Of a stretch of DNA of 64,000 nt, positions 28,068 to 38,349 are shown in pieces. The notes under the pieces are model-generated. The model made no database searches. It was not told the DNA's origin and worked only from the letters and a program-made list of their open reading frames with translations. Where the stretch lies: contig NZ_CP134876.1 of assembly GCF_032108445.1 (NCBI RefSeq), positions 558,001-622,000 of the forward strand. Direction: 5' to 3'. This DNA is from Micromonospora halotolerans (GTDB lineage: Bacteria > Actinomycetota > Actinomycetes > Mycobacteriales > Micromonosporaceae). Each line of letters begins with the position of its first letter. The stretch's first letter is position 1. Position numbers and translations under genes: made by a program.

Positions 28068-29024
28068 TCACTCTCCGCCGAAATCGCCGAAATCGCCGAA
28101 ATCGCCCTCGAAGGCGTCCTCGATCAGCTCACCGGCGACCAGGCCGCCCGCCACGCCCAGCGCGGCGCCGGCCACCATGCCGCCCATCCCCGCGCCGCGG
28201 TGGCCGTGGTGCCCGCGCGGCGCGCCGAAGCCCTGCGCGCGCAGGTTGCCGTAGCGCGAGGTGGTCTCCCGCAGCCAGCCGTCGACCACCTGCACCCAGT
28301 CGGTGCGGCCCGCGTCGCTGTGCGGGACGGCGTAGCGGCCGAAGGCGTCGTGCCCGGGGGTGAGGAAGCCGCCGCGCTTGTCGCACTCCAGGATCACCTC
28401 GACGCCGTGCTGGCTGGTCACGAAGGTCAGCTCGACCTCGTTTGTGACCCGGGCGTACTGGGGCGCGGCGAAGAACTCGATCTCCTGGTAGAAGGGCAGC
28501 GTCTGCTGCACCCCACGGATGTGGCCGCGCTCCAGGTCGGCGTGCTTGAAGCGGAAGCCGAGCGCCTGGAAGGCGTCGAGGATGCGTTCGTGGATCGGCA
28601 GCGGGTGCACCGCCACCTGGTCCAGGTCGGACTTGTCCACGGCCCGGGCCACCGCCAGCTCGGTGCGCAGACCCATGGTCATGCCGTGCAGCCGCTGGCC
28701 GTACACGTCGGTGACCGGGGTCTCCCACGGCACCGGGAGCTGGAACGGGATGGACAGCTGCTGCTTCGGGGCCAGCTGCAGCGGCCCGCTCACCGACATC
28801 CGGTGGAACTCCATGACGCCGGCGTACTCGGTGTCACCGCTCTCGATCTCGACCCGGGTGACGAGGCCGACGGTGATCTGCTCGATGCTCGCCGGCGCGT
28901 CGCCGCCGACCAGGTTGACGTGCCCGTCCAGGGTCAGGCCCGGCCGGGTGTTGGGGTTGGTCAGCACGGTGTCGACGCTCGGGCCGCCCACGCCGAACGC
29001 GCTCAACATCTTCTTGAAGACCAT
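28068..29024 (-). CDS. Spo0M-type sporulation control protein (arrestin-like)
   Basis: A 318-residue protein from ATG 29024 (GTG 29030 also in frame; AGGGG spacing favours the ATG). The SpoOM domain covers residues 1-230: VFKKMLSAFGVGGPSVDTVL, PGLTLDGHVNLVGGDAPASI, LSIPFQLPVPWETPVTDVYG and GLRTELAVARAVDKSDLDQV. These arrestin-like proteins influence sporulation control and cell morphology in Bacillus and actinomycetes. The C-terminus has a Gly-rich stretch (GAGMGGMVAGAALGVAGG) and ends in a repeated G-D-F triplet encoded by a 9-bp tandem DNA repeat. Confidence 0.85.
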   Translation of the reverse strand: MVFKKMLSAFGVGGPSVDTVLTNPNTRPGLTLDGHVNLVGGDAPASIEQITVGLVTRVEIESGDTEYAGVMEFHRMSVSGPLQLAPKQQLSIPFQLPVPWETPVTDVYGQRLHGMTMGLRTELAVARAVDKSDLDQVAVHPLPIHERILDAFQALGFRFKHADLERGHIRGVQQTLPFYQEIEFFAAPQYARVTNEVELTFVTSQHGVEVILECDKRGGFLTPGHDAFGRYAVPHSDAGRTDWVQVVDGWLRETTSRYGNLRAQGFGAPRGHHGHRGAGMGGMVAGAALGVAGGLVAGELIEDAFEGDFGDFGDFGGE

Positions 29025-29123
29025 GCTCACCCCTGCGGGACGGCGCTCTCTGAAGAGCGTCGGACGCTTGCTCGCGGCAGCCTAAACCCGCCCGCTGTGA
29101 GATGCCTGTGAGCGACCCCAGCC

Positions 29124-30956
29124 CTAACCGTCCGACAGGCCTTCGGGCTCGCGACTCGACGGCTCGCGGTCTCCGTCCGCCCGCTGCGCCGGTATGGCCG
29201 GATTCGATGGCCAATCCTGCTGGTCGACACGGTTCCTGACGCAGGCGGGCGGGCGGGTCTCCCGAACGTGTCCGGTGTAGTCGATCCGGTCGAAGGCATC
29301 GGCCGCGAAGGTGAGTTGACGCACTGCGGCGATGAGGGCGGCAACAGCTCTCGACCCCGACAGCCCGGCCCGGGTGCCCTGCCGGATCAGTTCCTTGGCT
29401 AGTGCGGCGTGCCACTGCCAGTGCCACTGCTCGGTCGTCATCTGCAACGCCTCGGCGCGAACGTAGCTCGGCAGTTTGTCGACCACCTGGCCGACGAACG
29501 CATCGACCGGGTCCGCATTGATGGCCGGTTGCACGGATCGAGCCGGCGCGCACAGTCCATCGAGATAGGCCGACACCTCGGCCGTATCCGACCACTGCAG
29601 TGGCGCGGCGCCTGCTCGCCGCACCGACAACACGAGATCGACCACCAGCCGGGCAGCGTCGACCGCCCAATGGTTCGGCCCGTACATGGACGCGTCCACC
29701 AACACCGGTCGGCTGTCCGGACTCGGATACACGAGGACGTTCGTGGAATGAAGGTCTCCGAATGCGTCAATGAAGACCGTCTTCCCTTCGGGTTTCCGGC
29801 CACCCGGCAGCGCGCCCTGGTCGACGAACGCGCTGAGGATCTCGCGGTGCTCGGCCTCATCCGACGCCTGCTCCTCACTTCCCCATACCGCTGCCAGGAT
29901 TTCCTCGTAGAGATTGAGTGTCTCGCGGAGGCGCAGGCGAAGCACTGGCGTGGCCACGAGCCACTCGGCGAAGGACCTTGTCTCCCGCTGCCCGGGTTCG
30001 AACAGCTTGGTGAGCTGAGCCCCGAACAGGATGTCGGCGACACTCTCGGCCTGCCGGCCTGGCGGGCCGGACAACCACTCAGCGAGCGTCACCGCTCCAG
30101 TGGCGAGGCGGGCGGCGACGGCATGATAGCCGGAGGTCCGATGTGTGCGAATTTGCCCGGAGAAACCCACCAGGTCACCCGCTCCGAGCAGATGCAACGC
30201 CCGCTCGTTGGCGCTGAGCTCGAATTCGAGCGCGCGCCGATCCAGCCCGATTTTGAGTACGTAGGAGGTGATGGACCTGCCCTCCATGTGATCGACCCGG
30301 CACACATGCGCTCCGGATCGACCAGACGCGAGGTAGCTGACCGCCAGGGTCGTCGCGTCCGGCCGGTAGTTCGGAGCGAGACAGTCGATGGCAAGGCTGC
30401 GGACGATGCTCTTTCCGATGGCCACCGAATCAACTCCTGGCGGATTCGGACTGCCAATGGTGTGCAGGGTGGACTCCAGTGCCAGGTCGCCGTCGGTGAA
30501 CGTCACCTTCAGACCGTCGAAGTCGCGCTTGCGTGCCAGGTGCAGGCGGATTCTGTTCGCGAGAGCCCGAAAGGTCATGCCGCCCTGGCGTCCCATGTTG
30601 AGGACGAACCGGATGACCGCGTCGTCCGCGCCTGCCCGGAGTGCCTCGTCCCGGAAGTTCGGGTATTTGTTTCCCAGACCGGTGATGACCAGCACGTACG
30701 TGTTTCCGCCTCGAGCCCGGATCGCCTCGACTACTGCAATCCCACTCTGCTGCCCTTCACCGAGCCCGTAGTCGACGATGGCGAAATCGAACGGAGGGCT
30801 GTCACGGATGGTCTTTCTTGCCGAGGTCGCATCCGGCAGGACGGTCCAGCCGACCTTCATCCCGATATCCTCGAACTCCAGGTCCATGGAGCCGCGGATG
30901 ATAGGGGTGTTGGGTGCCTCGTCGTCGACGAGCAGTCCGCGGATCTCCAGCGTCAT
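29124..30956 (-). CDS. Receiver domain fused to kinase-fold (aminoglycoside-phosphotransferase-like) domain
   Basis: A 610-residue protein from ATG 30956, which overlaps the upstream stop (ATGA). Residues 1-140 are a receiver-like domain: acidic D11/D12/E13, phospho-acceptor Asp62 in FAIVDYGLGEG, Thr92 in VLVITGLG. The usual Lys is replaced in GADDAVIR. Residues 195-560 resemble a choline/aminoglycoside kinase fold: LASGRSGAHVCRVD, Lys235 in YVLKIG, catalytic loop IDAFGDLHSTNVLV (Asp401, Asn406) and metal Asp421 in VLVDASMYGPNHWAVDAARL. This layout resembles the ternary-complex-associated domain class of predicted conflict systems, an attribution to be checked by profile search. Base composition is AT-richer than flanking genes. 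Substrate unknown; the catalytic residues suggest activity. Confidence 0.75.
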   Translation of the reverse strand: MTLEIRGLLVDDEAPNTPIIRGSMDLEFEDIGMKVGWTVLPDATSARKTIRDSPPFDFAIVDYGLGEGQQSGIAVVEAIRARGGNTYVLVITGLGNKYPNFRDEALRAGADDAVIRFVLNMGRQGGMTFRALANRIRLHLARKRDFDGLKVTFTDGDLALESTLHTIGSPNPPGVDSVAIGKSIVRSLAIDCLAPNYRPDATTLAVSYLASGRSGAHVCRVDHMEGRSITSYVLKIGLDRRALEFELSANERALHLLGAGDLVGFSGQIRTHRTSGYHAVAARLATGAVTLAEWLSGPPGRQAESVADILFGAQLTKLFEPGQRETRSFAEWLVATPVLRLRLRETLNLYEEILAAVWGSEEQASDEAEHREILSAFVDQGALPGGRKPEGKTVFIDAFGDLHSTNVLVYPSPDSRPVLVDASMYGPNHWAVDAARLVVDLVLSVRRAGAAPLQWSDTAEVSAYLDGLCAPARSVQPAINADPVDAFVGQVVDKLPSYVRAEALQMTTEQWHWQWHAALAKELIRQGTRAGLSGSRAVAALIAAVRQLTFAADAFDRIDYTGHVRETRPPACVRNRVDQQDWPSNPAIPAQRADGDREPSSREPEGLSDG

Positions 30957-33900
30957 GTCGACAACCTCCACCGTTCGAATCTGGCCTCGACACAGAAGCT
31001 GGCCCACTCCACCGGGGGCCGGACCGGCTGGAGATCAGCGCCGAACGCGGTGAGCTCGTCCGCGAGGGAACTCAGTCCTCGGCCTCCTCCCCTACCCGAC
31101 GGCCGGCTGCCATCGTTGCGAACCGAAACCGTCACATACCCGGGCGCGCGGTCCTCAACGACAACCTCGATGCGCTGGTCGCCGCCGCCGACCCGATGCA
31201 CCTTGACCGCGTTCATCTGAATGTGGGTGAACACGTCCTTGACGATGCGCTCACTGCAGAAGACCAAGAGGTGCTCCTCCGATCCGGCGTGTACCTGCTG
31301 ATCCGGAAAGGTGCTGCGGAGAATCCTCAGCAGATCCGTGGGGCACCGGTCGACAACCTGGTGGATCCCCGCCCCGTTCGCCGGCAGGAAGAAGTCGTTC
31401 CACCACTGCAGGTCGCGAAGCAGTTGATCCACATCGTGCGGGGCCCTCCCCGCACTCGCGCGCACCCGCTCGATCAGGGCGTCGAGCTGCACTGTCGTTT
31501 CGTCCAGCGCGCTGCGCCCCGGAGCGGCGTTGAGCACCTCGGCGAAGCGGTCCGCATCATCTCTGCCCAATCTTGCGGCGGCGTCGCGGTTCAACAGAGC
31601 GTTGCGCAGCAGATAGATGTTGGGCAACACGTCGAGGTTGAGGAAGTTGCTGCACACCGCCCAGTCTTCGCGCATGCCATCCAGGTCCTCTGGGCGCCGG
31701 CCCCGGCCGATCAGCGCGACGCTCTGGATGACCCGCCACATGGCGTTCTCGTAATCGTGGTCGGCGACCGACCGCCGGTGTTCACGCAGCGCAGCCCAGG
31801 CTGTCTGTCGATCGGCCGGCTCGGGCGCGACCGTGCGCTGCCCGTGGGAAAGGACGTAGCGCACCAGGTTGCGACTCAGCACGACAGTTTCCCCAGCGCT
31901 GTCTGCCCGCGAGCCACGCAGCTCGTCCTCGAGCCGGACTAGCCGCTGCACGATCGGATGGATCACCAGATCGCGGGAGTACCGGTTCGGGGAACGCGTG
32001 GCAGCCACCAGCCGCAGGGCCTCCAGCATCGCCTGCAACACCACCGGCTCGTCGTGCCTGTTCTCGTTCAGGATACGACTGAGCTGATCGGCGAACGTGA
32101 TCGCCGAGACCCGCGCCAAGAGGATCACCGCCTGCACCCGCAGCATCGCATCGGCAGCCGGCGCGGAATCGCCGACCAGCAACAACAGCGCCAGATCCGC
32201 GACGGTTGACTGGCACTCGGGGAACCAGAGCGGAGCCGAGCGCAGCCAGTGCGCCTCGGCCACCAGCAGCCGCACCAATGCGTCCCGGACGACCGGCTGC
32301 TGGCGGGCACTGGCCAGTTTGTGGGTGACCTCAAGCCGCTGGAGCGTGTCCAGGTCGGCCTCGCGCAGCTCGTAGCGCCAGCGTAGGTACTCCGTGCAGT
32401 CTTTGGGGCCGACGTGCGCGCCGAAGAGATCGGTGGCCTGCTCCTCGAAGGCCGCGCGCTTGGATCGCGGCTCCAACAGCCGCAGCAGCCAGTCCCGGTG
32501 CGCCTCCAACACGACGGGAATGGGCACGAGCATGGCCAATCCCTGATAGGCATCGCGTAACTTGCAGATGTCGCACCCCTGGCGGCTGCGGCCGCTCATA
32601 GCGGTCCGGGCGACGTAGTGCAAAGCGACAGGAATCGAATCGCGCCGGGGGCCGTGGTTCGACCGGGCAATGGTCGTTGTCTGGTGCAACACCAGTGCGT
32701 CGTCACCGGTCAAGCCGTTGAGCAGGAGGAATCCGCTGATGGCAGCGATATCGCCGGTGGCCGCTATCCGTTGCAGGTGACCGATGGTACGGGTGCTGCC
32801 GGTGCCGGCGTCGACAATGACCGCATGCCGCGCCCCGGCGGGCAGGGTCACTGAACCGGGGTACCGCCACCATTCACGTAGCGGAGCGCGCGGAATGCCC
32901 AGAGTGGCGATCACCGGGATGCGGGCGCTGACCAGGGCAGTGCCCAGCGCCTCAGCAACCCGCGGCAGGTCGTCCAGCGTCCCCTCGGGATAGAGCACAC
33001 AGGCCGCGACGGCTTCGGCGTCGCCGCCGAAAGTGGCATGGTGCATCTCGGTGACCCGTTTGGTCAACAGGCGGGTCACCAGCTCGGCCCAGTCGCGCTG
33101 GCGAAACAGGCGGGTCGGGTCGACGTATGCGGTGTAGTGCCGATCGGCTGGCCGCTCGATGTGACCGAGGCGGGCGGCGCTGGAGCGCTCCATGGCGGCG
33201 ACGTAGGCCCGCTGCGTCACGAGAGCCTTCGGTATCGTGCGCGTACCCGTCCTGGGCTGGCGGAGCACCGGATCGATCGGGTCCGGCTGACGGTTGAGGG
33301 GTGGCTCCACCCGCACGTCGACATCGGCGAGCTTGATCATTGGCACCCGACGGTTGAGGAAGAGAACCTCTCCGGGCTCGCTCGTGTCGTCGGCGGTGCC
33401 GGTGTCGACTCCGGCGGCAACCGCGAGGGGCACCATGTCCCGGTCGACGATCTGCAGCAGCGCGTGCTTGAGCGTACGGCGGCTGGACGCCAGGTCGGTG
33501 ACCAGCAGGACCTGGGCCGCGCCCTCGGCTCCCCGGCGGGCGCGCTCCAACCGCACGTCCTCCAGCGAGTCGGCGTAGCTGTCGTGACCGGTGAATGACC
33601 GCGCGAATGCTGCGACCATGGCGTGCGGCGCGTCGCCGACCCGGACGACCAGCGGAGCTGCTGCCCGGTCGAATCGACCGATGCGGTCCTCCATCCGAGC
33701 GGCGAGGGCGTAGCCTGCCAGGCTACCGAGGTTCAGGCCGGCCAGGATCCGGCTGAGATCGCACCAGCGGCTGGCCACCTCCAGGTTCGGAGTGAGGAAG
33801 ACGCCCTCCTCGACGCCCTCGGTCGTGCTGTTCTCAATCGCGTTCTGCAGCTCGTGGCCGACGTAGCTGGCCAGCGCGCTCATCGCGTCCTGCGGCTTGA

Positions 33901-35683
33901 TCCGCAAGTGGATCGCATCGTTCTCGGCGTGCAGCACCCCCGTCCGGTCCTGCAGTTCGCGAACGGCGGGTAGCGCGTCAGCGGGGTTACGACCGCTGGT
34001 GGCGAGGTCGTGCAGATGCACCGGATGCTGCGCCGCGGACAGCCGCCGCAGGATCTCCCGCCCGCCTGCGGTGCCGCCGACCCAGAAGTGTCGGTTGTCC
34101 GGGCCGAGAGCCAGAACCGGAGCCCGCATGTCAGGGGGAACATCGGCCGATCGCGGCCCGCACTCGGCGTTGAGGAACTCCACCGCAACCGACATCATCT
34201 GGCGGCTGACGCCAGGAAGGGCGATCACCACCGTGGCCAGATCGTCCGGAGCGTTGGCTATGCGCAGCACCTGTGCGATCGCGGTGCCGATGTCGACGTC
34301 GTCAGGACGAACGTCGCGGTCCAGTGCGGTGATCGCGACGACCAGGCCACCCGTGGCCGTCGGACGTCGACCCAACTGCCGACGGATACGGAGCAGGTCC
34401 GCCTCGGTCAGCCCGCATCGACGACGCAACGAGACCGCCACGCAATCCAGGTCAGGTCGCCCGTCCTCGCGGCCGGTGGTCCGTGGTGGCGTGATCACTT
34501 CCTCCGCCCCGAGCTGCGCCTCGTCGTCCGGCTGCAGGAGCAGGTCGCACTCGACGATCGTGCCCGCTGTGACCACGGTGCAAGCCCGAGCCGTGTCGTG
34601 CGGATCCGGCGATTGCCCGAAGACGCGGGTGATCAGCTGTCCACTCGAGGTGATCAGGAGGCCACCCTGGTAGCCGCGCGCGAGACGGGCCACCTTCCAC
34701 AGCCCTCGGGCATGATGATCAGTCAGCGCGGTCGGCTTGCGGGCTGGCGGCCGGCGGTCCAGCGCGGCCAGGATCGCCTGCTGCGCCTCGCCCGGGTCGA
34801 GGTCGACCTCCACCGGATTGGCCGTCGCAAACGCTCTGATCATGCCGCGGCCGGCATCTGCGACCACGAGGCGGACCAGCGGGCTGGGCACCTTGGCCGC
34901 CCACTTGACCAGATCGCGGATGCTCTCGTCGAGATCGTCGCCGCGGTCCTTGTACGTCTCCGGCGGCACGATGACACCGCCAAGGAGGATCCGCTGCCGG
35001 CCCGGACTTCCACTGCCGCCGCCGTCGCGCAGGCCGGAATGCTCGGCGGCGTTCTCCAGGAGTTCGGCGATGATGCCGGTGCCGATCGCAGCGGCCTGCT
35101 CGTCGGACAGCCCGAGGTCCTTCAGGTCGGCCACCCACCGGAAGGCTTCGTCGGACTCGGTCAGACCGCGTGCTTCACCGACGCCGACCCAGCGGTATGG
35201 CAGGATTCGGCGACGTCGCTTCGGCAGCTGACCGCCTTCACCACCGCCGTCCGAGCGGCGCGGAACGTCGGTGACGGGTGAGAGTCGTCCCACGCCGTCC
35301 GGCGCCACGAACTCGACCTTCCCGTCCATGTCGGCGTAGGCGGCCTGGAAGCCGGTCTGCTCGAGGTAGAGCTGACAGTTGCGCCGGGCCAGCCGCCGCA
35401 CCCCGGTGGCGGCCTCCTGTGGCGACTCGTGCGCCAATGCGTCCGGCTGGGGCGACACCACGGAGAACTGCGCGCCCGCGTCGGTCACCGCTCGCAGGAA
35501 GATAAGCAGGTGGCCCAGCGTCACAAAATCGGCGAACCCGACCTCGGACAGGTCGACGACAATGTGCTGGCCCGCGAACTCTCCGGGAGCGAACGTGGTG
35601 TCGGCAAAATACTCGGCGTGGGCGCTCAGGGCGTCCATCCAGGATCGGGCGTTGAGACGAATGCCGAAATTGAGGAGAATCAT
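30953..35683 (-). CDS. 1576-aa multidomain protein: STAS-like, two GHKL ATPase and two PRTase-like modules
   Basis: ATG 35683 is the preferred start because the STAS-like fold begins at once (FGIRLNARSW, IVVDLSEVGFADFVTLGHLL, about 1-90). GHKL module 1 spans 195-380: N-box GIIAELLENAAEHS, G1 LVVADAGRGM, G2 HHARGLWKVARLARGYQGGL. Residues 600-760 resemble an orotate-type phosphoribosyltransferase: FLTPNLEVASRWCDLSRIL, then the PRPP-loop-like VLLVTDLASSRRTL. A second PRTase-like unit spans about 860-1010 (VIVDAGTGSTRTIGHL). A CxxC (GCDICKLRD) is near 1037. Helical, HEAT-like segments fill 1100-1420. GHKL module 2 is C-terminal: VFTHIQMNAVKVH, VRNDGSRPSGRGGGRGLSSL. No HisKA domain is present. Its stop overlaps the receiver-kinase gene. 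Family function is unknown to me; domain calls are by eye. Confidence 0.7.
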   Translation of the reverse strand: MILLNFGIRLNARSWMDALSAHAEYFADTTFAPGEFAGQHIVVDLSEVGFADFVTLGHLLIFLRAVTDAGAQFSVVSPQPDALAHESPQEAATGVRRLARRNCQLYLEQTGFQAAYADMDGKVEFVAPDGVGRLSPVTDVPRRSDGGGEGGQLPKRRRRILPYRWVGVGEARGLTESDEAFRWVADLKDLGLSDEQAAAIGTGIIAELLENAAEHSGLRDGGGSGSPGRQRILLGGVIVPPETYKDRGDDLDESIRDLVKWAAKVPSPLVRLVVADAGRGMIRAFATANPVEVDLDPGEAQQAILAALDRRPPARKPTALTDHHARGLWKVARLARGYQGGLLITSSGQLITRVFGQSPDPHDTARACTVVTAGTIVECDLLLQPDDEAQLGAEEVITPPRTTGREDGRPDLDCVAVSLRRRCGLTEADLLRIRRQLGRRPTATGGLVVAITALDRDVRPDDVDIGTAIAQVLRIANAPDDLATVVIALPGVSRQMMSVAVEFLNAECGPRSADVPPDMRAPVLALGPDNRHFWVGGTAGGREILRRLSAAQHPVHLHDLATSGRNPADALPAVRELQDRTGVLHAENDAIHLRIKPQDAMSALASYVGHELQNAIENSTTEGVEEGVFLTPNLEVASRWCDLSRILAGLNLGSLAGYALAARMEDRIGRFDRAAAPLVVRVGDAPHAMVAAFARSFTGHDSYADSLEDVRLERARRGAEGAAQVLLVTDLASSRRTLKHALLQIVDRDMVPLAVAAGVDTGTADDTSEPGEVLFLNRRVPMIKLADVDVRVEPPLNRQPDPIDPVLRQPRTGTRTIPKALVTQRAYVAAMERSSAARLGHIERPADRHYTAYVDPTRLFRQRDWAELVTRLLTKRVTEMHHATFGGDAEAVAACVLYPEGTLDDLPRVAEALGTALVSARIPVIATLGIPRAPLREWWRYPGSVTLPAGARHAVIVDAGTGSTRTIGHLQRIAATGDIAAISGFLLLNGLTGDDALVLHQTTTIARSNHGPRRDSIPVALHYVARTAMSGRSRQGCDICKLRDAYQGLAMLVPIPVVLEAHRDWLLRLLEPRSKRAAFEEQATDLFGAHVGPKDCTEYLRWRYELREADLDTLQRLEVTHKLASARQQPVVRDALVRLLVAEAHWLRSAPLWFPECQSTVADLALLLLVGDSAPAADAMLRVQAVILLARVSAITFADQLSRILNENRHDEPVVLQAMLEALRLVAATRSPNRYSRDLVIHPIVQRLVRLEDELRGSRADSAGETVVLSRNLVRYVLSHGQRTVAPEPADRQTAWAALREHRRSVADHDYENAMWRVIQSVALIGRGRRPEDLDGMREDWAVCSNFLNLDVLPNIYLLRNALLNRDAAARLGRDDADRFAEVLNAAPGRSALDETTVQLDALIERVRASAGRAPHDVDQLLRDLQWWNDFFLPANGAGIHQVVDRCPTDLLRILRSTFPDQQVHAGSEEHLLVFCSERIVKDVFTHIQMNAVKVHRVGGGDQRIEVVVEDRAPGYVTVSVRNDGSRPSGRGGGRGLSSLADELTAFGADLQPVRPPVEWASFCVEARFERWRLST

Positions 35684-35817
35684 GCCGCATCCCCGCTCGA
35701 TCGCTCGTGTGGAGACTTGTCTGCCAATCACGCTACCGAGTGAAATCGATATCGCAAGCCGCTGTTCCTCGGGCCGTGCGAACGGCGCGGGGGTCCCTGC
35801 CGATCGAAGGACGAGCC

Positions 35818-36474
35818 GTGACCGATATTGACGTCCAAGGAGCATTGGCCGAGTACCAGTCACTCCGCGCGGAGATAGATTCGCGGGCCAAGTTTCAGCA
35901 GCAGATTGTCGGCTTACAGCTGACCCTGACCAGCGCTATCATCGCTTTCGGACTGTCTCGTCCGGGTTTCCTGGCGGTGTTGCTGATTGTGCCGCTGAGC
36001 TCCTATCTGCTATGTGGGCGCTATGTCGGGCAGCGCACGGCGATGCGCTGGACGACGAGATACATCGATGAGGAACTCGCTCCGCGGGTGCCGGGCGGAC
36101 TCGGCTGGGGGGCCTGGTCAACGGCCAACCGGCGGCCGGCCCGACTCCTGGACTGGTTCCTACCACTGCTGATCTGCTTTCCCGGGGCGAGCCTGCTGAC
36201 GCTGGGGTGGACCGTACGGCTCATGTTCGCGCACCAGGCTTGGTACACGACGGCCGGCTTTGTCATCGTCTGGTTGGTCGGTTTCCTCACCACCGGCATC
36301 TCGGTCTACCTACTCGTGGATGTGCTCCACCGCTCGGCTCCGGTGCAGGCACCGGTCTCCCGGAACGCGGGCCTGCCCTCGGCACCGGCTACTCGCCCCA
36401 CACGTCCGGGTGCCCCCGAACCGATGTCGTCAGCACCACCGGCACCCGGGGAGCACGTGCCGCCGGTTCGATAG
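35818..36474 (+). CDS. Multi-TM membrane protein, divergent partner of the island operon
   Basis: A 218-residue protein from GTG 35818 behind AAGGACG. An amphipathic N-terminal helix (ALAEYQSLRAEIDSRAKFQQ) leads into four hydrophobic segments (near 30-45, 48-62, 115-135 and 145-165), with a basic loop GRYVGQRTAMRWTTRYIDEE after the second. The tail is Pro/Ala-rich. The start pattern AEY..LR.EI..R recurs in actinomycete membrane proteins of unknown function, and is reminiscent of small-membrane effectors in conflict loci, but no named family is certain. It shares a 134-base divergent control region with the 1576-aa gene. Confidence 0.7.
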   Translation: MTDIDVQGALAEYQSLRAEIDSRAKFQQQIVGLQLTLTSAIIAFGLSRPGFLAVLLIVPLSSYLLCGRYVGQRTAMRWTTRYIDEELAPRVPGGLGWGAWSTANRRPARLLDWFLPLLICFPGASLLTLGWTVRLMFAHQAWYTTAGFVIVWLVGFLTTGISVYLLVDVLHRSAPVQAPVSRNAGLPSAPATRPTRPGAPEPMSSAPPAPGEHVPPVR

Positions 36475-36618
36475 GCGCGAGCGGTACGACCGGGTGTGAT
36501 CACGCACCGAACGCGAGTCCGTTTCCCGACAAAGCGCCGGGCGCCGTTACCCACCCACCGCACGGGGTGCCGTGCCGCAGCCGCGTAACCTCCACCCCCG
36601 CCGCGCGTAGGGCGTGTT

Positions 36619-36948
36619 TCAGAACTTGTCGCGGGGGCGGGCTTGCGGTCGTCCGGGGTAGCCGCGAGCGGCTAGCCAGATGGTGAGGTCGGTGGCGATG
36701 CGGCTGACGTCGGTAGCGGTAGTGAGGTCGTGCTCGCGCCAGCGGGGGTCGCGGCGTTCAACCTCGTAGCTGCCGTCGTCGAGTAGGGATATCGAGGCGT
36801 ACCAGTCGCTGTCGTCGGCCGGGGTGATGGTGACGAAGGTGTTGTCCGGGTGGCCCAGCTGATTGATCAGCATGAACAGGGCATCTTCGGATGGGTCGTC
36901 GATGTGGTCGCCGTTTTCGGTGTCGGCGGCGTGGTACTCGGCGGTCAT
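36619..36948 (-). CDS. Small hypothetical protein inside the IS, immunity-protein-like
   Basis: 109 residues from ATG 36948; the TGA lies inside the left inverted repeat of the IS. The sequence is acidic with a compact alpha/beta pattern: DALFMLINQLGHPDNTFVTI, DDSDWYASISLLDDGSYEVE, TTATDVSRIATDLTIWLAARG. The strand order and final helix recall Imm1-type immunity proteins of polymorphic toxin systems, but the match is by feel, not motif. There is no toxin nearby. It may be a true IS passenger or a fossil gene captured between the ends. Confidence 0.5.
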   Translation of the reverse strand: MTAEYHAADTENGDHIDDPSEDALFMLINQLGHPDNTFVTITPADDSDWYASISLLDDGSYEVERRDPRWREHDLTTATDVSRIATDLTIWLAARGYPGRPQARPRDKF

Positions 36949-37004
36949 CGGCACCCCCTCGTCCCGGTTGGAGATCAACGGGTTGAGCATCTCACGGTCC
37001 GCGG

Positions 37005-37553
37005 TCACAGCCACTCGTTGATCGCGGCGATGTGCAGGACGGCATCGAACCGCACGGCGAGCTTGTCGTAGCGGGTGGCTACCGCCCGGTACCGCTTGAG
37101 CCGGTTGATCCCGCACTCCACGGCAAGTCGGTCTTGTAGTCCTCCCGATCGAAGCGGGCGGCCGTCCACCGCCGCGGCCGCGGTTGCGGCGGTGGGCGGC
37201 CTGATCGGCCGGTTCGGCGAGGGCCGCGCGGATGCCGTGCCGGCGCAGGAACTGCCGATTGGCCCGGATGAGTAGGCCTTGTCCGCCCGCACCGGTCGCG
37301 GGCGCCACCGCGGCCGTCCCGGCCCGAGCCGCGGTACCCGGATCGCCTGCAGCACGGGGAGGAACTGCGGGCTATCCCCGCACTGCCCGGCGGTGATCAG
37401 CAGTGACAACGGCTTCTGCCGCTGCTCACAGGCGAGGTGGGTCTTCGTAGTCAGGCCACCACGCGAGCGGTCCAACGCATGATCTGTCGGCTCCACACTC
37501 GTACCACCGGGAGGTTCCACCTGCGCATCACCGTTGCGGCGCGCCCTGGCGGC
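37005..37553 (-). pseudogene. IS5-family transposase, 5'-truncated and frameshifted
   Basis: The piece starts at codons for EPTDHALDRSRGGLTTKTHL, which corresponds to the middle of an IS5/IS1182-like DDE transposase; about 120 N-terminal residues are missing. It continues TAGQCGDSPQFLPVLQAIRV, then RVRADKAYSS-like, after which the frame changes (RRHGIRAALAEPADQAAHRR is read in another phase). It changes again before the C-terminal AVECGINRLKRYRAVATRYD. The DDE triad cannot be assembled in one frame, so it is non-functional. Confidence 0.8.
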
Positions 37554-37572
37554 GCAACTTATGAAACACGTC

Positions 37573-38349
37573 CTAGTCGACGTCGACCACGATGAGCTCA
37601 CCGACCTGCTCGCCGATCTGCTGGCGCCCCTCCGGCGGCAGCCCGCCGTCGGTGACGAGCACGTCGGCCGCCTCCAGCGGCGCGATGGTGGCGATGCCGA
37701 TGGTCTCCCACTTGGTGTGGTCGGCGAGCACCACGAGCCGCCGGGCCGCGCCGATCAGCCGCCGGTTGACGGCGGCCTCCAGCAGGTTCGGGGTGGTGAA
37801 CCCGGTGCGCGGGCTCATCCCGTGCACGCCGAGGAAGAGCAGGTCGACGTTGAGCGCCGCGATGGCCGCCTCGGCCACCGGCCCGGTCAGCGCGTCCGAG
37901 GGGGTACGGATGCCGCCGGTGAGCACGACGGTCTGGTCGGCCCGCGGGTTCTGGTAGAGGGCGTCGGCGACCGGGATCGAGTTGGTGACCACGGTCAGCC
38001 CCCGGACGTCGGCCAGCCGGGCGGCCAGGGCGGCGGTGGTGGTGCCGGCGGAGAGCGCGATGGCCATGCCGGGCTCGACCAGGTCGGCGGCCCGCTCGAC
38101 GATGGCCCGCTTCTCGGCCTGCTGCCGGATCGACTTGGCCGCGAAGCCCGGCTCCTCGGCGGAGCCGGGGCCGGCCAACGTCGCTCCCCCGTGGACCTTG
38201 TCGACCAGGCCCCGCTCGGCGAGCACCTCCAGGTCCCGCCGGATGGTCATGTCCGACACCCCGAAGCGGCTGACCAGGTGGCTGACCCGGACGCCGCCGC
38301 GCTGGCGGATCAGCTCCAGGATGGCGCTCTGCCGTTGCTGGGCGAGCAT
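37573..38349 (-). CDS. DeoR-family transcriptional regulator of the galactoside locus
   Basis: A 258-residue repressor from ATG 38349 behind AAGGAGG. The N-terminal HTH (QRQSAILELIRQRGGVRVSH, FGVSDMTIRRDLEVLAERGL) carries the DeoR signature, followed by VDKVHGGATL and a sugar-phosphate-sensing C-terminal domain (AIALSAGTTTAALA, LTVVTNSIPVADAL, DLLFLGVHGM, VVLADHTKWE). It is downstream of, and co-directional with, the GH42 gene, and probably controls it and the divergent importer operon. Its TAG stop straddles the IS insertion point, so length is probably unchanged, but downstream termination may be altered. Confidence 0.9.
   Translation of the reverse strand: MLAQQRQSAILELIRQRGGVRVSHLVSRFGVSDMTIRRDLEVLAERGLVDKVHGGATLAGPGSAEEPGFAAKSIRQQAEKRAIVERAADLVEPGMAIALSAGTTTAALAARLADVRGLTVVTNSIPVADALYQNPRADQTVVLTGGIRTPSDALTGPVAEAAIAALNVDLLFLGVHGMSPRTGFTTPNLLEAAVNRRLIGAARRLVVLADHTKWETIGIATIAPLEAADVLVTDGGLPPEGRQQIGEQVGELIVVDVD

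Follow-up and report, generated by a model that had tools for sequence, protein, structure and literature searches.

A rare, mobile signalling cassette of Micromonospora halotolerans encoding a giant STAS-GHKL protein with PRTase-like modules

Genes and features at the locus

The window, by which we mean the whole stretch of DNA analysed (64,000 nucleotides, positions 558,001 to 622,000 of contig NZ_CP134876.1 of Micromonospora halotolerans), carries between spo0M and deoR an inserted unit whose cargo is a cassette of three genes together with a DDE transposase fragment (Table 1). The cassette consists of a gene for a giant protein, a gene for a receiver domain joined to an APH/TCAD9-like kinase (RRk), the start of which overlaps the stop of the giant gene, and a divergently oriented membrane-protein gene (MEM). 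The giant protein had been singled out in a preliminary description as a STAS-GHKL-PRTase-PRTase-GHKL chain with helical repeats and devoid of HisKA, and this observation stands with corrections: a single chain contains a STAS domain, a GHKL domain, an unassigned alpha/beta region, a PyrR-like phosphoribosyltransferase (PRTase) module, a second module of predicted PRTase fold, helices and a GHKL domain of the histidine-kinase type, Pfam finds no HisKA in it or in four relatives, and a family that extends over its whole length is absent from Pfam, NCBIfam, PADLOC and PHROGs. What had been missed is the CA fold of the second GHKL domain, the receiver in the next gene, the presence of MEM and the horizontal mobility of the cassette.

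The giant gene and RRk are adjacent at all 12 loci (11 loci and L108). MEM is present at nine of the 11 and was not found in L108; as it was not found at three of the 12 loci, the core of the cassette must be able to do without it.

Table 1. Position of the cassette, its genes and their domains in the window
Feature	Position	Strand	Basis or remark
Insertion relative to the empty sites of relatives	29113..37574		blastn of 8 relatives' sites; between spo0M and deoR
Giant protein gene	30953..35683	-	start ATG 35683, stop 30953, 1576 aa
RRk gene (receiver + APH/TCAD9-like kinase)	29124..30956	-	610 aa, ATGA overlap with giant gene
MEM, membrane-protein gene	35818..36474	+	218 aa, divergent; 9/12 loci, four hydrophobic stretches
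Giant: STAS-like domain, residues 1-115	35339..35683	-	Pfam STAS/STAS_2, weak; strand-helix pattern in model
Giant: basic conserved junction, residues 155-165	35189..35221	-	alignment; Trp165 in 11/11 rows
Giant: GHKL 1, SpoIIAB-like, residues 157-385	34529..35215	-	fold and motifs
Giant: unassigned alpha/beta domain, residues 405-614	33842..34471	-	model, well predicted; between GHKL 1 and PRTase module 1
Giant: PRTase-like module 1 (PyrR/HPRT-like), residues 615-817	33233..33841	-	profile match
Giant: PRPP-loop region of module 1, residues 725-737	33473..33511	-	second acid (D or E) 12/12, first 0/12
Giant: PRTase-like module 2, residues 822-1036	32576..33220	-	fold and motif; starts LGH...H(Y/F)xxY
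Giant: PRPP-loop region of module 2, residues 952-968	32780..32830	-	first acid 12/12, second 0/12; register by eye
Giant: CxxC, residues 1037-1040	32564..32575	-	12/12 rows
Giant: helical region, residues 1041-1440	31364..32563	-	model
Giant: His1309-Asp1310, candidate phospho-acceptor	31754..31759	-	His aligned 12/12, Asp directly after in 9/12; role inferred
Giant: GHKL 2, histidine-kinase CA-like, residues 1447-1574	30962..31345	-	fold and hhalign
RRk: receiver domain, residues 8-114, presumed acceptor Asp62	30615..30935	-	Response_reg E 2.3e-6 (below the family's cut-off); PDB profile; motif rows
RRk: GDLHSTN catalytic loop of APH-type kinase	29739..29759	-	motif rows

Distribution of the cassette

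With the own genome counted throughout, full-length homologues of the giant protein were found in 4 of 61 relatives, in 11 of 354 family genomes and, at E<=1e-6, in 4 of 348 order genomes, one of which, G1238, belongs to another family, while the class (394 genomes) and the phylum (396 genomes) gave a full-length match in the own genome only. About two candidates were scored in each genome, and 43 of the 54 positive family genomes contain short matches only. The window and eight copies at 39-87% identity make up a window type of nine loci; the other three, at 22-27% (G744, G466 and G1238), are divergent. No match to the giant protein was obtained in plasmids, phages or viral contigs, none to RRk in plasmids and none to MEM in viral contigs. 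The MEM profile recovered 1 of 198 phylum genomes, its own, and the RRk profile gave, outside its own genome, receiver-length matches only, in 149.

Insertion site and mobility

Homology between the window and the corresponding sites of eight relatives (blastn) stops at 29024-29112 on one side and at 37575-37587 on the other, and at this site G019 holds 7242 bp vs 5 bp in G021. Among 16 members of the genus, spo0M and the beta-galactosidase gene are 0.9-1.2 kb apart, the site being empty, in six (G032, G626, G021, G018, G006, G031); the interval holds other material in four (G002, G020, G008, G012) and the cassette in two (G009, G019). The remaining four (G003, G007, G013, G035) allowed no judgement. 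Other copies of the cassette lie at other loci; in G626, classed as the species of the window genome, this site is empty and a copy of 39% identity lies at another place. Between the window and G009, dS is 0.45-0.58 for the giant gene, RRk and MEM vs 0.08-0.14 for spo0M, deoR, the beta-galactosidase and a UvrD-type helicase (3-7 fold), and between the window and G019 it is 0.75-0.90 for the cassette vs 0.23-0.36 for the flanks (2-4 fold). Because this synonymous divergence lies above that of the flanking genes, which form the only background of the comparison, it argues against joint descent of the three cassette genes and their flanks; alternatively, the cassette itself may have a higher synonymous rate.

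The differing material in the spo0M-deoR interval of G008, G012, G002 and G020 (L101-L103, L100, L099) makes this a variable spot. The idea of a defence hotspot found no support, as the other cargo consists, by reading, of regulators, transposases and an Rhs-like gene. The DDE transposase fragment of the insertion lies at 37008-37601 of the window (minus strand; Pfam DDE_Tnp_1, E 4.8e-7).

The STAS-GHKL front of the giant protein

Pfam gave weak STAS matches only for the giant protein itself; at E<=10 on four relatives, it reported STAS_2 in four, STAS in three, HATPase_c in three, and Pribosyltran and UPRTase in one each. The phospho-site motif of SpoIIAA is DSSG. In a register set by eye against this motif, the position of the phospho-serine is occupied by V (nine rows), G (two) or T (one), and none of the 12 rows offers a phosphorylatable Ser there. 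Classical partner switching through the giant's own STAS domain, the anti-sigma chemistry that the preliminary description had in mind, is rejected on this ground, and Pfam detects no separate STAS gene in the insertion.

The first GHKL domain has SpoIIAB as its best fold match and carries EL-x-E/D-N and G-L/M-W-K/R-V/A in 12/12 rows each, with the G1 Asp in 11 of the 12 (Asn in P0009); a PDB profile search did not recover it and returned designed helical repeats. In the basic junction (residues 155-165), the motif LPFQW is also read in L108. Residues 405-614 gave no hhalign match to PRTase module 1, module 2 or STAS, and a fold search with a model covering them left the domain without identity, the match list being filled by GHKL. 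In four pairs of sequences, dN/dS is below 0.4 in each domain of the giant protein, with values of 0.11-0.28 for the PRTase and GHKL 1 regions, which indicates purifying selection.

Two known kinases share this front: CapK, an ssDNA-responsive HTH-STAS-GHKL kinase with control over immune operons, and VapK, a STAS-GHKL kinase (PMC13373217). The giant protein likewise has STAS followed by a SpoIIAB-like GHKL, and its Trp165 and basic residues near the boundary of the two recall the ssDNA groove of CapK, a resemblance only, unaligned. It differs from the CapK/VapK kinases in having neither an HTH (Pfam) nor a Ser at its own STAS phospho-site, in the lack of an adjacent STAS substrate gene of the CapS/VapS type (neither MEM nor RRk has a STAS match in Pfam) and in its approximately 1190 further residues, which comprise the PRTase-like, helical and CA-like parts. 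Of the architecture, proposed earlier to be likely undescribed, the front is known from CapK and VapK; no description of a PRTase-GHKL fusion was found in the open-access full texts searched.

The PRTase-like modules

A type I PRTase fold is indicated for module 1 by profile, with PyrR as best match, and for module 2 by predicted fold only, so that the identity of the latter as a PRTase is putative. Its profile search returned a repeat protein at 0.0022 (no single stretch passing) and PRPP synthetase at 0.76, hhalign against local PRTase sets gave probabilities of 1.4 and 0.4, and the two modules do not match each other (hhalign 0.2). The LGH...H..Y of module 2 is invariant in the 12 rows, and the start of the module presumably resembles the GHF..SGRH..Y start of OPRTs.

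The canonical PRPP loop is DD...T, with two adjacent acids. Compared with this motif, with the register set by eye, neither module has two adjacent acids in any of the 12 rows: each loop keeps one acid and is without the other, the losses being complementary, and the module 1 loop reads SSRRT in the three window-type rows. The modules thus differ from PyrR, HPRT and APRT, which module 1 matches by profile and module 2 by fold, in their incomplete loops and in being fused in tandem between kinase-type domains. Since each loop is without one of the two acids, sensing seems likelier than catalysis, and target modification by the PRTases, suggested in the preliminary description, becomes less likely.

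GHKL 2 and the partner RRk

GHKL 2 is predicted to adopt the CA (HATPase_c) fold of two-component kinases, in a C-terminal model with a pTM of 0.42. Its hhalign value against 36 kinases is 97.9, for a set that was picked by the family's own profile matches and is partly circular, and a PDB profile search did not find it significantly (DesK at 0.32). The second GHKL fold and the PRTase folds proposed at the outset are supported, that of module 2 by predicted fold only. The N-box Asn of GHKL 2 is present in 11 of 12 rows, the usual Asp of the G1 box is Asn in 11 of 12, as in one of the compared kinases (L021), and most of the 12 rows have His in place of the N-box acid. His1309, aligned in 12/12 rows, was not placed on a kinase H-box by global hhalign.

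In the adjoining gene, the presumed acceptor Asp is found in 11 of 12 receivers (9 of 10 aligned rows, L064 and L108), and the usual Lys of receivers is Arg in nine of ten rows and Trp in the tenth. The APH-type kinase has its Lys, DLH..N and second Asp in 10/10 rows; with TCAD9, RRk of the window scores 30.2 vs a gathering threshold of 40, below it, whereas RRk of G1238 lies above gathering, both for TCAD9 (48.7) and for APH (28.9 vs 23.2). The giant protein of G466 (P0011) is the only one of the 12 whose GHKL 2 is without the N-box Asn, and it is also without the G-box pattern; its partner receiver has VVIVNLLYP in place of the stretch that carries Asp in the others, and has lost the acidic pair and TG as well. 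The other divergent members, G744 and G1238, retain both the N-box Asn and the receiver Asp. GHKL 2 and the partner receiver thus appear, from sequence, to have decayed jointly in this one lineage.

With two-component systems of the DesK/HisKA_3 type, the pair shares the CA-like GHKL 2, the adjoining receiver with its presumed acceptor and this joint decay; it differs in that the giant protein has no recognised DHp/HisKA and that the output of the receiver is an APH-type kinase. TCAD9 (PF19974), which the RRk kinase domain resembles, is named in a legend of PMC10910872 as associated with vWA-MoxR-VMAP. Unlike those ternary systems, the inserted unit of the window contains no vWA, MoxR or VMAP gene (Pfam), and the constant partner is the giant protein. 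PMC7159879 places both APH-type kinases and receiver domains among the effectors of conflict systems.

Proposed function and alternatives

The cassette is a real, rare and mobile signalling unit with an architecture that we did not find described. Tentatively, we read it as a horizontally mobile cassette with two to three genes. A STAS-GHKL front like that of CapK, together with PRTase-like sensors, would gate phosphotransfer to a receiver-kinase, with a stress or anti-phage output. Gene linkage, the discrete insertion, the folds and purifying selection come from the computation, whereas phosphotransfer, the sensing of a ligand, the target of the kinase and the role in the cell are inferred. 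Phosphotransfer between the partners is plausible because of the CA fold of GHKL 2, the linkage with RRk at 12/12 loci, the receiver Asp in 11 of 12 and the joint loss in G466; it is weakened by the lack of a Pfam HisKA, the failure of global hhalign to place His1309 on an H-box, the receiver Lys changed to Arg or Trp and the deviations in the G1 and N boxes of GHKL 2. The giant protein would be a cytosolic hub whose front is built like that of the stress kinase CapK and whose two PRTase-like modules would serve as sensors, with PRPP or a nucleotide as the most likely ligand. The C-terminal GHKL would act as a histidine-kinase catalytic domain and phosphorylate the RRk receiver, directly or via a His in the helical region; this would switch the attached APH-type kinase, the target of which (MEM, some other protein or a small molecule) would execute the stress or anti-phage response. 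A more specific version, which we consider rather unlikely, is a mobile immune or stress switch combining a CapK-like kinase, tandem pseudo-PRTase sensors and a CA domain in one protein, in which nucleotide-pool changes induced by phage or damage (possibly ssDNA) would send phosphoryl to the receiver-controlled APH-type kinase and on to a membrane or STAND effector. If the phosphotransfer reading is right, STAS-GHKL serine kinases, two-component phosphotransfer and PRTase-based nucleotide sensing, which are normally separate, are united in one horizontally spread unit, and actinomycetes gain a coupling of nucleotide state to kinase output. As the presumed partners share one operon, the prediction is directly testable.

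Other readings weight the modules differently. Were both PRTase-like modules active, the cassette could be an immune system in which a nucleotide messenger opens or activates MEM; the PRTase profile and fold, MEM at 9 of 12 loci and the nucleoside and nucleotide derivatives described as made with PRTases in Ter systems (PMC7824862) are in favour, but an acid is missing from each loop in 12/12 rows, the three window-type rows have SSRRT in module 1 and MEM was not found at three loci, and we regard this as improbable. A PyrR-like metabolic switch of the nucleotide pool, devoid of any conflict role, would agree with the best match of module 1 and with the apparent pyrimidine-biosynthesis setting of the pair in G744; such a setting was seen, by reading, at one of the 12 loci, and patchy presence with mobility at unrelated sites is unlike a core metabolic regulator, which leaves this reading with little probability.

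GHKL 1 could instead act in the manner of SpoIIAB or CapK, phosphorylating STAS proteins encoded elsewhere and so controlling either a sigma factor or a repressor, the remainder of the protein being regulatory. Its SpoIIAB match, its conserved motifs and G1 Asp and the precedent of CapK (PMC13373217) fit this, yet the inserted unit has no separate STAS gene, the phospho-site of the own STAS domain is not Ser and such a role would not account for the constant receiver-kinase partner, so that we find it quite doubtful. Very unlikely, lastly, is an ordinary but extremely divergent hybrid two-component protein with its extra modules as inert scaffolding: the CA fold, the receiver partner and the incomplete PRTase loops would suit it, whereas the low dN/dS of the PRTase and GHKL 1 regions and the invariant motif of module 2 speak against inert modules. 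Phosphotransfer to RRk remains our preferred, tentative reading.

Neighbouring genes and paralogues

A defence role for the cassette is suggestive, and weaker than the phosphotransfer model. In G469, a gene matching TmtA (PADLOC, 1383.8 bits; L061:15127-19308, minus strand), which we take to be a Tiamat gene, lies about 1.2 kb from the cassette MEM. In G1238, the likely ATG (13347) of an NB-ARC/TPR STAND-type gene (L108:13347-15413, plus strand) precedes the stop of RRk, the two genes overlapping, and the N-terminus of its product presumably resembles a stretch common in actinobacterial STAND proteins. The TmtA-like gene is the only clear PADLOC match among the scanned cassette neighbours, ten further ones, chosen by size, having given weak domain-level matches only; genes in these neighbourhoods were called by a simple composition script, so that errors are possible. 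For the cassette itself no PADLOC system model matched (giant protein, Cas11e at E 0.0021 and 0.017; RRk, Cyclase at 0.057; MEM, none), and a CRISPR link through Cas11e was rejected, the best match being short and helical.

The giant gene and RRk of G744 lie inside an apparent pyrimidine-biosynthesis cluster (L064:182-19550, by reading), in which Pfam finds two amidohydrolase-family genes and a PRTase gene.

All nine MEM proteins have four hydropathy peaks. Pfam and PADLOC assign MEM to no family, and it has one weak PHROG match, named phosphohydrolase (5.1e-5, no single stretch passing), which our reading leaves unexplained. A MEM paralogue of the own genome (L072:8502-9098, minus strand, C1:2.88 Mb) lies next to genes for a phage integrase and for RepSA (pSAM2) and is therefore probably cargo of an integrative element. 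Another MEM paralogue, at 34% identity, is carried by a Streptomyces plasmid.
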